This document shows positions 26,999 to 45,288 of a DNA stretch of 46,511 nt, piece after piece; positions within the stretch are counted from its first letter, which is position 1, and each line of letters opens with the position of its first letter. The notes under the pieces were generated by a model. That model was not told the origin of the DNA and made no database searches. It worked only from the letters and a program-made list of their open reading frames with translations. The stretch spans positions 1-46,511 of the forward strand of contig CALVBT010000011.1 in the NCBI GenBank assembly GCA_944325885.1, given 5' to 3'. Origin of the DNA: Candidatus Gastranaerophilales bacterium. Lineage in GTDB: Bacteria > Cyanobacteriota > Vampirovibrionia > Gastranaerophilales > Gastranaerophilaceae. A program made the position numbers and the translations under genes.

Positions 26999-27200
26999 TT
27001 CATATAGTCAACTGACTCCGACCACTTATTGAACCTGTGCATTTGACAAGTCCATTTTGTTCAATAAGTCCGGCACAGGCAACAAGCGGAATCAGACGGG
27101 GCCTTGCCCCATGCGTAGTCCCACGTTCAGGGGGACGAAGCGTCTGATTTCAAGACAGTCCAAGGGGTCATTTTACAAGCTACAAGCGATACAGCCTCAG
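26999..27200 (+). repeat. Repeat copy with inserted 60-nt module, downstream of secY
   Basis: The copy starts CATATAGTCAACTGACTCCG. Complementary blocks then appear in interleaved order: CTTATTGAA (27025-27033), CCTGTGC (27034-27040), TTCAATAAG (27060-27068), GCACAGG (27073-27079). A 60-nt foldable module sits at 27090-27149, followed by GGGGTCATTTTACAAGCTACAAGCG and a CAGCCTCA end. An open frame runs through the second half of the repeat into the next gene. Confidence 0.85.
27090..27149 (+). ncRNA. Candidate structured RNA module, copy 1
   Basis: The closing stem is AATCAGAC / GTCTGATT, extendable by one pair. Inside are a hairpin GGGGC-CTT-GCCCC and a second hairpin with stem GTCCC (27118-27122) / GGGAC (27132-27136) and loop ACGTTCAG. 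The copy at 36173-36232 has the same length, closing stem, first hairpin and loop, but a wholly different second stem that still pairs. I do not recognise an RNA family. Whether it is transcribed is unknown. Confidence 0.55.
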
Positions 27201-27221
27201 GCACTATCTAAAACAAAAACA

Positions 27222-28967
27222 ATGATTGTCCACCCTATAACAACGAATTTTAATATACAAAAAAACTCCTCAATAGCACAAATCGCTCCTTCGAGATATT
27301 GTGCCTTCAAGTCTGTTCAAACATCAACCACAGGCGATTCTATAAAACTCTCCTCTTATCAACACAAATACGATATTGATTCCGCTTACAAAGATATTCA
27401 ACAAAAGCTCGAGGTAGTTTCCGGCAAAGACATTGAAAATTTAATAACAAAAATCAACAAAAATTTTCCCGACCTCAATAATGACGAAATCCTGACTATT
27501 ATGGACACACTGTCTGACTATAGCAGCTACGGGTCGATGAATAATATTGCAAAAAATTTGTACAACAACGATTTTTTAGGTGTCTACGACTTTGCACAGG
27601 AACTCAGCTACAAAACAATACGAATCAACACAAACACACCGAATGAACAAAATACCAACAACAGAACTCTAAAAATCCCCTCAAAACACCCTACACAGAC
27701 AATAACACAGGTACCAAAAGGTCTGGGTGTGCCGCTCGGGACGATTCTGGATTATTTGACCTTCGGCAAATATATAATGGATTTTAAAAGCAGAAAACTC
27801 GCACTTATTTTAGATGAAAACTCTATAAAACTGCTTCAAAATACAAAAAAAGCTTCGCCTGATTATTTCAAAACAGAATTCCTGAACAATGACACTTTTG
27901 TGCCTGTTTACATTGATAATTTTGAAAACTCCTACAATTTCTTAAATCAAGGAAAAACTTTTGAACAAGCAGCAATCTCTTTTATAAAAAAATATAAAAA
28001 CCTGAAAAGCAAAAACCCGAACCTGCCTCAGGAAAAAATTATTGATATAATTTTGAATTACAAAAACCTAAAAAATATTAAAGAACTGGGATTTTCTCCT
28101 CTAAGAATAAAGCCGCAAAAGCAGGAACCCCCAACGCCGGAAACAATCGCAAACAAACTTAACCCGCTCTTACCGGACAGAGAAACTTTTGAAAAAACCA
28201 TTAACAGCATAGCCAAAGACTCTAACCTTGAACAGGAGAAAACAAAGCAGCTTATATTCGGGTATCTCGATAAAAACCTTGCAATATATTCGCCTCACAC
28301 TTTGAGCAAAAAACTTATCGAACTGCATAAAAAAATTGTAAAATCAGCCGAAGAAAAAGGCTATCCCTCAAAAAACATTTACTATACGGTTCTTCATCCG
28401 AACAAGAGTTTCGGGCTTATTGCATACCAGTTTCAAAAAGCCAACAAAATTCCGGACGACAATATCATTTACTGGATAGGCTCCTGTCATCAGCCGAACA
28501 TAAACTTTGACCCGCCGGAAAAATCCACTATAGTAATCCTCGATGACTGTTTTATTTCCGGAAATACTGTAATGTATGAGATGCTAAACTATCAGCAGGA
28601 GGCTTTTTTCCTTAATGCAAACAAAAAAGATACAAACCTGATTTTTGCCTCTGTATTAGGGACAAATACAGCAAAAACAAGACTCGAAAACAATATAAAA
28701 CATGCAAAAAGAGAACAATTTGATACTGTAATAAACATTGACACAAAAAATACAAACTGGTCTGACAATATAAAAAAGCAAAGCGGTCTTTTTGATTTTT
28801 TGAAAATACTAAGAAAAGACACCCATCTTCTTGCGACAACAGCAGTTGTATTTCCGTATATGGGCAGCGATACAAACGCCCCGGGGCTGCGTAATTTTTT
28901 TAAACTCTTTGTCCCGAACCCGAACTACCTGCACAAGGAAGTATCAAAAGATGACTTTTTCGCATAA
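27222..28967 (+). CDS. Protein with phosphoribosyltransferase-like motif inserted in the ribosomal cluster
   Basis: From the ATG at 27222 the product has about 581 residues. The frame is open back to an ATG at 27057, but those 55 codons come from the dispersed repeat and are not counted; neither start has a clear ribosome site. Most of the protein is lysine/asparagine-rich and helical without a recognisable domain. Near residues 435-450 STIVILDDCFISGNTV closely matches the PRPP-binding loop of type I phosphoribosyltransferases (hydrophobic strand, DD, then T/S-G-x-T), preceded by a plausible core strand region. Substrate and activity are unknown. It lies between secY and infA, flanked by a repeat and by terminator-like hairpins, and reads like an insertion. 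Confidence 0.7.
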   Translation: MIVHPITTNFNIQKNSSIAQIAPSRYCAFKSVQTSTTGDSIKLSSYQHKYDIDSAYKDIQQKLEVVSGKDIENLITKINKNFPDLNNDEILTIMDTLSDYSSYGSMNNIAKNLYNNDFLGVYDFAQELSYKTIRINTNTPNEQNTNNRTLKIPSKHPTQTITQVPKGLGVPLGTILDYLTFGKYIMDFKSRKLALILDENSIKLLQNTKKASPDYFKTEFLNNDTFVPVYIDNFENSYNFLNQGKTFEQAAISFIKKYKNLKSKNPNLPQEKIIDIILNYKNLKNIKELGFSPLRIKPQKQEPPTPETIANKLNPLLPDRETFEKTINSIAKDSNLEQEKTKQLIFGYLDKNLAIYSPHTLSKKLIELHKKIVKSAEEKGYPSKNIYYTVLHPNKSFGLIAYQFQKANKIPDDNIIYWIGSCHQPNINFDPPEKSTIVILDDCFISGNTVMYEMLNYQQEAFFLNANKKDTNLIFASVLGTNTAKTRLENNIKHAKREQFDTVINIDTKNTNWSDNIKKQSGLFDFLKILRKDTHLLATTAVVFPYMGSDTNAPGLRNFFKLFVPNPNYLHKEVSKDDFFA

Positions 28968-35416: not shown

Positions 35417-36091
35417 ATGATTAAACAAATAGGCGGATATGCAGTACCTTTTGTAAGGACAATAAACGGAAGAAAATTCAGAGTAACACCAGTGATAGAA
35501 GAACTTTCTTCTGATATTGAGCCAAAAACAAGAGAACGCATAAAAAACGTTTTGCAAAAAATCCAGCACGATTCTTTTGTTATAAAAGGGGTTTATGAAA
35601 AGAAAATGCAAAACGGCGACGTTGCCATTATGATAAACAGGGACCCGTACAATGTTTTTAAAAGAACGGGTAGCATAGACAAACTTATGCTGTTTAAAAA
35701 AGACGGAACAATAAAAGTAAAAGACTCAAGCAAAATGCCTCAAAGGCTTCCGGAAGGCGAAGTAAACGTATACAGCGCAACAAAAAGAATACTCCAAGAC
35801 GGTATGGCAGTATTTAAAGAAAGCATCACAAAGGTGTTTTCTACCCCTGACAACAAGCTGAGAAATCTGGAACAAAACATCTACACTCCAAATACTCTCT
35901 ACCGCTATCAGATAGGGGATGATTCTTTTATCAGCAGGACATTTTCCGAAGGATACGGGCATCTGGGCGACCCGACGATAGCTTCACGTGTGAAAAAGCT
36001 CGTGTTTAAAGATTCTCAAGGCAGATGGAAGACCGAATACTCTCAGGTGCAAAACGGAAACTTTTTAACACAATACGACAATTTTATATAG
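35417..36091 (+). CDS. Protein of unknown function ending inside a dispersed repeat
   Basis: I do not recognise this 224-residue protein. It has no signal peptide or membrane span, is basic, and mixes strands and helices (YAVPFVRTINGRKFRVTPVIEEL; KMQNGDVAIMINRDPYNVF; NTLYRYQIGDDSFISRTF). TTTAGGAGAAAAA is a strong ribosome site, so it is probably expressed. The TAG stop codon (36089-36091) is part of the repeat's ATATAGTCAACTGAC start, so the repeat may have trimmed or defined its C terminus. Confidence 0.7.
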   Translation: MIKQIGGYAVPFVRTINGRKFRVTPVIEELSSDIEPKTRERIKNVLQKIQHDSFVIKGVYEKKMQNGDVAIMINRDPYNVFKRTGSIDKLMLFKKDGTIKVKDSSKMPQRLPEGEVNVYSATKRILQDGMAVFKESITKVFSTPDNKLRNLEQNIYTPNTLYRYQIGDDSFISRTFSEGYGHLGDPTIASRVKKLVFKDSQGRWKTEYSQVQNGNFLTQYDNFI

Positions 36092-36257
36092 TCAACTGAC
36101 TCAGGCTGCTTGTAGAACCTGCGCAATCGGCAAGTCCGTTTTGTTCAACAAGTCCGGCACTTGCAACAGCGAAATCAGACGGGGCCTTGCCCCTTGTGAA
36201 CGGAAACGTTCAGTTTTCGTGAACGTCTGATTTCAAGACAGCTCAAGGGGTCACTTT
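36086..36257 (+). repeat. Repeat copy with 60-nt module, first of a double array
   Basis: Core GTCAACTGACTC at 36091-36102, then a CTTGTAGAA / TTCAACAAG pair with one mismatch and a degenerate CCTGCGC block. The 60-nt module follows at 36173-36232, then CAAGGGGTCACTTTCG. A 190-bp foldback module joins directly at its end. Confidence 0.8.
36173..36232 (+). ncRNA. Candidate structured RNA module, copy 2
   Basis: Same length and plan as 27090-27149: AATCAGAC / GTCTGATT closing stem, GGGGC-CTT-GCCCC hairpin, and a second hairpin with ACGGAAA (36200-36206) / TTTTCGT (36214-36220). The stem differs at all five shared pair positions from copy 1, yet pairs, and the ACGTTCAG loop region is unchanged. 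Known family not recognised. Confidence 0.55.
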
Positions 36258-36455
36258 CGATAGCTTTTTCTTAATTTGCATAAAAAATATGTTTACAAAA
36301 AATCCTATACGGAGCTTTTTAGAACAACTTATCGAAAAAACATCTAAGGCGAATGTGTTTGAGGCTGTTTTACAGCCGAGTTATGAGCCTTTGGTTTTCG
36401 ATTAGTTGTTTTTAAAGTGCAGTATCGAGATTTTGAGTAAACATATTTTTTTATT
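36258..36455 (+). repeat. 190-bp foldback module, copy 1
   Basis: The module lies between two repeat units. AAAAAATATGTTTAC (36282-36296) and GTAAACATATTTTTT (36437-36451) form a perfect terminal inverted repeat. Inside, AACAACTTATCGAAAA pairs with TTTTCGATTAGTTGTT (one mismatch), AAGGC with GCCTT, and GGCTGT-TT-ACAGCC is an apical hairpin. A near-identical copy lies at 42095-42292. It has the size and foldback shape of a MITE or a structured RNA gene; no transposase is present. Confidence 0.75.
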
Positions 36456-36624
36456 TAATATTGTCAACTAACTCCGACCACTTATTGAACCTGTGCATTT
36501 AACAAGTCCATTTTATTCAACAAGTCCGGCACAGGCAACAAGTGCATGGGGTCACTTCCGCATCACCCTTGCAAGCACGCACAAGACAATCCAGTCAACT
36601 GACTCCGATTATACAAACAAGACT
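36456..36624 (+). repeat. Repeat copy, second of the double array, plus extra core motif
   Basis: GTCAACTAACTCCG (36463-36476), then CTTATTGAA, CCTGTGC (36490-36496), TTCAACAAG, GCACAGG (36529-36535), AAGTG-x8-CACTT and CCGCATCACCCTTGCAAGCACGC. A further core motif GTCAACTGACTCCG follows at 36594-36607. The CACCCTTGCAAGCACGCACAAGACAATCC ending is shared only with the copy at 42391-42431. Confidence 0.85.
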
Positions 36625-36659
36625 AAATATATTGACCATCTGGTCAATATATTTTTTTT
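36625..36659 (+). terminator. Strong terminator-like palindrome at the end of the repeat array
   Basis: AAATATATTGACC pairs perfectly over 13 bp with GGTCAATATATTT around the loop ATCT and is followed by a T-run to 36659. It would end rightward transcription through the repeat array. Its centre, TTGACCATCTGGTCAA, also resembles a TetR-type operator, and it lies 110 bases before the next gene, so a regulatory role is possible. Confidence 0.65.
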
Positions 36660-41899: not shown

Positions 41900-41992
41900 A
41901 GAATATCTCCTTTGATTATTAATCACTATTATTCTATACGCAATTTAGACAAAACAAATTGCCCTGAACAACTAACCCCCAAAGATATATTT

Positions 41993-42094
41993 TATATAGT
42001 CAACTGACTCCGATTACTTTATCGACAGGTGCAAGAACAAAGTCCGATTGTATAAACAAGTCCGGCACCTTTAAAAGTCCAGGGGGTCACTTCC
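41993..42094 (+). repeat. Repeat copy, second subtype, first of a double array
   Basis: Core GTCAACTGACTCCG at 41999-42012. This subtype has AGGTGC (42027-42032) pairing with GCACCT (42065-42070), where other copies have CCTGTGC with GCACAGG, and TTTAT with ATAAA in place of CTTATTGAA with TTCAATAAG. It ends AGGGGGTCACTTCCG and runs straight into the second foldback module. Confidence 0.85.
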
Positions 42095-42292
42095 GATAGC
42101 TTTTTCTTAACTTGTATAAAAAATATGTTTACAGAAAAATCCTATACGAAGCTTTTTAGAACAACTTATCGAAAAAAACATCTAAGGCGAATGTGTTTGA
42201 GGCTGTTTCACAGCCGAGTTATGAGCCTTTGGTTTTCGATTAGTTGTTTTTAAAGTGCAGTATCGAGATTTTGAGTAAACATATTTTTTTTA
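42095..42292 (+). repeat. 190-bp foldback module, copy 2
   Basis: About 97% identical by eye to 36258-36455, with terminal inverted repeats at 42118-42132 and 42275-42289. Differences are substitutions in loops and two single-base length changes in A-runs. As in copy 1 it is sandwiched between two repeat units. No open reading frame is shared by the two copies. Confidence 0.75.
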
Positions 42293-42446
42293 TTTTATAT
42301 AGTCAACTGACTCCGACTGCTTTATCGACAGGTGCTAGCATAAAGTCCGATTGTATAAACAAGTCCGGCACCTTTAAAAGTTCAGGGGGTCACTTCCGCA
42401 GCACCCTTGCAAGCACGCACAAGACAATCCGGTCAACTGACTCCGC
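42293..42446 (+). repeat. Repeat copy, second subtype, second of a double array
   Basis: Core at 42302-42315, then TTTAT/ATAAA, AGGTGC/GCACCT, AGGGGGTCACTTCCGC, and the ending CACCCTTGCAAGCACGCACAAGACAATCC seen also at 36561-36590. A last core motif at 42432-42445 stops four bases before the stop codon of the next (minus-strand) gene. Confidence 0.85.
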
Positions 42447-44629: not shown

Positions 44630-44747
44630 ATATATTAGACATTATTAGCCCTATACAATACCATCAAAATTAAGTTTACATTCCTTTACGATTGATAATA
44701 TTTATTATGTAAGATTGTTGTTTTTTATTGTTTTTTTATATGTTCAA

Positions 44748-44783
44748 TTTCTTTTCTTTTTTTGCGACGAAAAAGAAAAGAAA
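44748..44783. repeat. Perfect 14-bp inverted repeat
   Basis: TTTCTTTTCTTTTT and AAAAAGAAAAGAAA flank TTGCGACG. It is AT-only in the arms and lies in the non-coding stretch between rplS and the rRNA genes. No clear role. Confidence 0.6.
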
Positions 44784-44817
44784 CGAACCAAAGAAAAGAA
44801 AAAGGACGCTGATTAAA

Positions 44818-44899
44818 ACAGACTCTAATATATTTATCTCCAAAATTTTCTAAACGCTTACGCTAACGAAAATTTTGTTCGTAAATACAAAGAGTCTGT
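44818..44899. other. Nested hairpin, possible terminator or small RNA
   Basis: ACAGACTC (44818-44825) pairs with GAGTCTGT (44892-44899), and inside it CAAAATTTTC (44841-44850) pairs with GAAAATTTTG (44868-44877) around a loop holding CGCTTACGCTAACG. The two stems are coaxial with unpaired bulges between them. Confidence 0.5.
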
Positions 44900-44953
44900 A
44901 ACCATAGTCACAACGGCAGAGCCGTAAAACACTTTCGTGTGCAGCTTCGCTGC

Positions 44954-45170
44954 ATACAGATAATTGTTAAAAAAAGACCTTTGCATAGTGAATTACAGAA
45001 TGTTGCATATACAACTGCAAACGAGGTATTGTCCGAGGCACGGGGAAATTACTTGAACCACAGATAATATTTGTACTTTAGCAATTTTGACGTGCCGAGT
45101 TGCCGAGACAGGTATATGCTACTTTCTGTATGAACGAAGCAGCAGGTCTGATTTTAATAATTATCTGTAT
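44954..45170. ncRNA. Candidate long-hairpin RNA beside the rRNA operon
   Basis: A 217-base stretch closed by ATACAGATAATT (44954-44965) and AATTATCTGTAT (45159-45170). Nested pairs follow in order: AGACC / GGTCT, TACAG / CTGTA, and GGCACG (45037-45042) / CGTGCC (45091-45096), with a GTTG-CATATA-CAAC side hairpin. Length and rod shape recall 6S RNA, but I do not see its diagnostic sequence, so no name is given. Strand is unknown. No ORF is present. Confidence 0.45.
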
Positions 45171-45288
45171 TAAAATTACCACATCAAAACAAAAGATAAA
45201 AAACTTACATAATAAATATTATCAAACCAACGCAACAAAAAAGAGTTTCTGAAATTACTTCAAAAACTCTTCTTTGCTAAAATTAGAA

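Follow-up and report, generated by a model that had tools for sequence, protein, structure and literature searches.

A candidate Gastranaerophilales-specific family of non-coding hairpin elements with a conserved folded core and locus-specific, self-matching arms

Results

Foldback modules in the window

The window, by which we mean the whole 46,511-nucleotide stretch of Gastranaerophilales DNA that was analyzed, contains ordinary neighboring genes (patatin, SPFH/NfeD, DUF2769, GH3 and rplS), with rRNA at its end. It also encodes, at 27057–28967, a 636-aa protein with a PRTase-CE domain, a predicted conflict-system domain, for which PADLOC gave no match. At the curated score Rfam found only rRNA in the window, with eukaryotic miRNA models matching weakly and far below threshold, and the tRNA/tmRNA search returned nothing. 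The features of interest are the following.

36081–36257, + strand: dispersed-repeat unit to the left of copy 1, broken up by an additional small hairpin (about 36173–36236)
36282–36451, + strand: foldback copy 1 (F1 family), tip to tip; inverted arms 36282–36304/36429–36451; fold z −6.9; match to model R1 at 36292–36440, E 3e-30
36349–36388, + strand: apical domain of copy 1; near-invariant columns in 21 copies; homologous domain in the F2 and F3 families
36453–36592, + strand: right dispersed-repeat unit of copy 1; repeat match
41988–42095, + strand: left dispersed-repeat unit of copy 2; repeat match
about 42115 (also given from 42118) to 42292, + strand: foldback copy 2 (F1 family); 97% identity to copy 1; R1 match at 42129–42278
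42291–42431, + strand: right dispersed-repeat unit of copy 2; repeat match
44954–45170, + strand: F3 hairpin copy; arms 44954–44980/45144–45170; R1 match at 44966–45157, E 6e-4; apex TTGTCCGAGGCACG..CGTGCCGAGTTGCCGAG

The two foldback copies (36258–36455 and approximately 42094–42292) align at 97% identity, as the original prediction had it (about 97%), and differ by a few substitutions and two 1-nt indels. Both carry the perfect terminal inverted repeats that had been described, with 15-nt tips AAAAAATATGTTTAC (36282–36296; 42118–42132) and GTAAACATATTTTTT, and the described GGCTGT/ACAGCC apex lies at 36363–36368/36372–36377 of copy 1, where the conserved internal loops GCGAATGTGTTTGA / GAGTTATGAGC flank GGCTGT-TTT-ACAGCC within the apical domain. 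The RNA minimum free energy of −62 kcal/mol compares with −34.6 ± 4.0 for dinucleotide shuffles (z −6.9), which means that the foldback folds far beyond chance. Two details needed correction: the element measures about 170–175 bp from tip to tip rather than 190 bp, and the inner stem has several mismatches, which recur in other copies, rather than one. The 38-codon frame (MFTKNPIRSF...PLVFD) is intact in copy 1 and broken by the 1-nt indels in copy 2, as had been noted, and for this reason we reject a coding peptide; the modules are non-coding. Their predicted character as foldback, repeated, non-coding, structure-like and formerly mobile sequences stands. An AT-rich, terminator-like palindrome (AAATATATTGACC-atct-GGTCAATATATTTTTTTT) was also seen at 36621–36657.

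Each copy is indeed flanked on both sides, as reported, by units of a dispersed repeat (GTCAACTGACTCCG...GGGGTCACTTCCG), which has about 42 matches in the genome. The genome-wide copy search suggested with the original prediction found a third copy of 96% identity (locus L009, at C3:218915) and approximately 20 more, diverged copies in the 2.17-Mb genome, mostly at 67–85% DNA identity. Just 3 of the approximately 20 genome copies have the dispersed-repeat setting; these are the three near-identical ones, and they have a common flank (ATAGCTTTTTCTTAA...; ATAGCTTTTTCTTAATTTGTAT), which indicates that they multiplied together with the dispersed repeat. The proposal of a MITE aimed at this repeat is therefore rejected, and the three near-identical copies would additionally have spread as its passengers. 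A small hairpin AAATCAGACG...CGTCTGATTT (about 36173–36236) inside the left unit is present in copy 1 and at L009, absent from copy 2 and from locus L026, and has a possible AGC duplication at its junction.

Distribution of the family

Our survey is based on searches and on the stretches around matches. Copy number in genome G009 is similar, and a few copies occur in other species of the genus. Matches to the model were found in 57 of the 192 genomes of the order Gastranaerophilales (14 of 45 genera), and with a single exception these genomes belong to one family, while a 194-genome sample of the phylum gave 27 positives, every one inside that same family, and no relatives outside it. Two further hairpin families, F2 and F3, have the same apical domain as F1, with F2 matching the F1 model at 78 bits (E 1e-14) and F3 matching it weakly (E 2e-4 to 4e-3). 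The best explanation is that F1, F2 and F3 form a Gastranaerophilales-specific superfamily, in which F1 is a non-autonomous, non-coding hairpin element. A literature search found no description of this family.

Many copies start 5–40 bp past a stop codon, and they occupy convergent, co-directional and occasionally divergent gaps, such as groES-groEL and the gap between genes for an flhA-type (FHIPEP) protein and a fliI-type ATPase. Relative to the genes, counted in co-directional gaps only, 7 copies have the same orientation and 7 the opposite one. Copies are often at contig ends, so the element probably breaks assemblies.

Conserved core and strand asymmetry

The conserved part of the element is a 148-nt imperfect-hairpin core and not the tips. 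In the alignment of 21 copies there are 24 consensus pairs, 9 of them with changes on both sides, and 97.4% of cells pair; none of 500 shuffles came up to these values, and slid controls gave at most 2. Most constant are the internal loops UGUGUCUGA/GAGUUG and GAAAC/GUUGA, both GA-rich. In every one of 32 distinct copies the motif strand gives the more stable fold, with a mean of −68.6 kcal/mol as against −55.1 kcal/mol for the complement. Since the copies are related, this does not amount to 32 independent tests. The motif strand also carries 4.7 G.U per copy as compared to 1.3 on the complement across the same 32 copies. The arms alone gave 27 G.T vs. 12 A.C (p 0.024, with some of the arms related too).

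Covarying stems on one strand are what a structured RNA should have, although template switching can mimic such covariation. The copies might thus be structured small RNA genes or RNA processing elements, for example an RNase III or protein-binding hairpin in 3' UTRs and operon gaps, and the covariation, the strand-specific stability with its G.U excess, the GA-rich conserved internal loops and the location within the operons groES-groEL and flhA-fliI all agree with this. However, the even orientation relative to co-directional neighbors (7 same, 7 opposite) makes read-through RNA an unlikely cause of the strand asymmetry, the copies are patchy in related species and without an Rfam match, and the arms vary so freely that no fixed promoter can lie in them. 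We consider an RNA function improbable. For the core, the structured RNA originally suggested gains support through covariation and strand asymmetry, but read-through RNA does not explain it, and no promoter was identified. The simplest inference is that a single-stranded DNA form lies behind the strand asymmetry, with an RNA having its own promoter as the alternative.

Locus-specific, self-matching arms

Further out than about 11 nt from the core, 19 types of arm can be distinguished among 32 copies, e.g., CCTGTGAATAAAATAGG..CCTATTTTATTCACAGG at L076 and ACATTTTTTACAG..CTGTAAAAAATGT at L075. The mean pairing score of an arm is 15.8 with its own partner vs. 7.1 with foreign ones (0 of 10000 permutations reach the mean), and the own partner is the best match in 17 of the 19 types. 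The core-adjacent parts of the arms (TTGAAAATC / GATTTGAAA) recur at unrelated loci and hence belong to the element. In one shell of the G000 type (L147), a mismatch has been repaired to match the other arm (TTTTTCAACCT vs. TTTTGAAACCT elsewhere). No fixed terminal inverted repeats are common to the copies, conservation being central, and with 19 arm types that pair within their own copy the copies do not share a transposase site at their tips. A classical MITE with fixed tips is not supported by this result, since the tips are the least conserved part.

An ordinary DDE-transposase MITE with diverged terminal inverted repeats, or the cargo of a larger element, T0 (26-bp ends TATTGATAATATGTATTATGTAAAAA in G009), is a further reading to consider. 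Several copies in G009 and G000 do lie inside T0 composites with sharp shared ends of 22–26 bp, and A+T-rich inverted repeats and small size are in keeping with a MITE. Many copies are solitary, however, without T0 ends and without a constant tip or flank motif, and conservation peaks in the middle of the element and is lowest at its tips, where an end-binding transposase needs the reverse. Inspection of the copies showed no constant flank motif, and among the loci inspected we saw no autonomous or transposase-bearing version. We therefore give a conventional MITE or T0 cargo little credence.

The window also contains a composite at 44692–45225, adjacent to the 5S/23S rRNA genes, in which 22-bp inverted ends TTGATAATATTTATTATGTAAG/CTTACATAATAAATATTATCAA enclose the F3 hairpin; composites in G009 have very similar ends. 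A further hairpin family, H2 (GAGGYATAAGR..TTCTTCGTTCCG / CACTCCGAAG..CYTTAYRCCTC), occurs at L154 (G009:C13), L022, L144 and L145, and its distal arms vary too, with matching changes on the opposite side.

Same sites across species and nesting

In the flhA-fliI gap the element is present in G015 and G011 and inverted in G001 and G007, with AAAGGATATT replaced by AAAGGGGGTTTT in both arms; only the 5' half is found in G000, a deletion remnant in G009, and a short gap with no hairpin in 17 other species. Separate insertions into this same gap are also conceivable. At groES-groEL the element is present in G001, several other species have short gaps, and G009 has a deletion, with what is left of the element, its left arm and some of the core, joined via TTTAAA to the right flank. 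A different repeat family (GAATAAGGTGTGTGAAACTCGAAGGGGTTCGAG...) repeatedly fills the groES-groEL gap in about ten species (L191–L209). Around L093, gene order differs in close relatives.

The search for an empty site, also suggested at the outset, yielded one ambiguous locus. The foldback is missing at L026, where the sequence matches the left flank of L009 as far as AAAAAATAT and then continues immediately with TGTCAACTGA. This could be an empty site holding a single arm, in keeping with inverted flank copying, or the product of a deletion between AATAT repeats, so that the insertion ends are not fixed by it. We do not count L026 or either G009 locus as a clean empty site, since they are or may be short-repeat deletions (TTTAAA at groES-groEL, AATAT at L026).

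The apices of F1 hold other modules in G007, G011, G015, G004 and others, and one G000 shell type is found with three interiors. Such nesting supports a preference for hairpin apices and could also reflect tolerance of insertion there. Locus-specific, self-matching arms could arise if the core inserts at the apex or loop of pre-existing palindromes such as terminators, the arms being the target's old hairpin and repeated rounds leading to nesting. The occupied F1 apices, the shell with three interiors and the many copies 5–40 bp after a stop codon speak for this, as does the finding that targets of the Yersinia repeat YPAL span or adjoin dyad symmetry (PMC2229807). On the other hand, most element-free relatives have no matching hairpin at flhA-fliI or groES-groEL (these species being 10–20% diverged), the arms are AT-rich and mostly not terminator-like, and their core-adjacent parts, shared by unrelated loci, are the element's own. 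Insertion into existing hairpins is thus unlikely, if still a serious candidate, and in its pure form, with pre-existing terminators only, we reject it on the evidence of the element-free relatives at these two loci.

Search for a mover

Y1/RAYT transposase genes (PF01797) are present in 8 of the 23 genomes of the genus, and none was detected in the element-carrying G000, G007, G011, G015 and G018. The genes inspected carry other REP-like repeats, and the element is not nearby; a link to RAYT/REP is rejected because no Y1 gene was detected in G000 and the RAYT loci inspected have different repeats. At L220, L221, L222 and L223, solo RAYT-like genes (PF01797) stand amid REP-like hairpins (GTTGGG..CCCAAC), and at L222 the dispersed repeat of the window follows the RAYT-like gene. 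Wherever the tips of the common G000 type reappear in the loci inspected, they belong to another non-autonomous module.

Discussion

The reading that we tentatively prefer, at somewhat below even confidence, is a non-autonomous hairpin element that is recognized as a folded single strand and whose arms are homogenized by template switching. A putative trans-acting factor would recognize the folded core of one strand, ssDNA being likelier than RNA, and insert it at new intergenic sites without relying on constant ends. Once the hairpin is in place, template switching during its replication would copy one arm onto the other, so that the two drift in sequence yet stay matched, and would occasionally invert the middle. 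Homogenized inverted arms, compensatory changes of several bases and inverted spacers are all known to result from template switching (PMC8604942, PMC8794818). We infer its action here from the outcome, as the arm changes and flips at flhA-fliI and the repaired mismatch at L147 fit these known products.

Bacteria commonly carry small palindromic repeats, and the element belongs to this broad kind as a lineage-specific variant. YPAL/RU-2 of Yersinia is about 168 bp long, with internal inverted repeats, no TA ends, an intergenic location and insertion associated with dyad symmetry (PMC2229807). The element is like it in size, in inverted repeats that are internal rather than terminal and in intergenic location, and may be so in the lack of TA ends and in the association of insertion with dyad symmetry, whereas the Gastranaerophilales arms are specific to their locus and drift without losing their match, the phylum is another, and a duplication of the target could not be shown. 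ERIC, Correia/NEMIS and RUP are similar in being 100–200 bp, non-coding, stem-loop, intergenic and found in both orientations; in most of them the terminal repeats are fixed, with TA and a duplication of the target (PMC2229807), in contrast to the tips described here, which are not conserved. REP/BIME units with RAYT, an IS200-like Y1 transposase, share the imperfect hairpin, the conserved mismatches and the strand-specific folded form. REPs are shorter, with a GTAG foot, and differ further in that no RAYT was detected in G000, and the RAYTs inspected in other genomes have different repeats. The arm homogenization, multi-base compensatory change and spacer inversion resemble template-switch evolution of hairpins (PMC8794818, PMC8604942), described there as a mutational process on single hairpins and here apparently acting on a dispersed mobile family.

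A bolder and rather doubtful view is that of a selfish hairpin class that moves as a folded single strand via its central core and lacks defined ends. Its outer arms would be gained anew at each locus, through insertion at hairpin apices or inverted flank copying, so that nested “Russian-doll” palindromes shape the intergenic regions of a bacterial family.

With the usual handle of fixed ends absent and the folded core constant, the family lends itself to testing single-strand hairpin mobility, and also the role of template switching in keeping palindromes matched. For the Gastranaerophilales, which are gut bacteria, the hairpin element is a lineage-wide feature.
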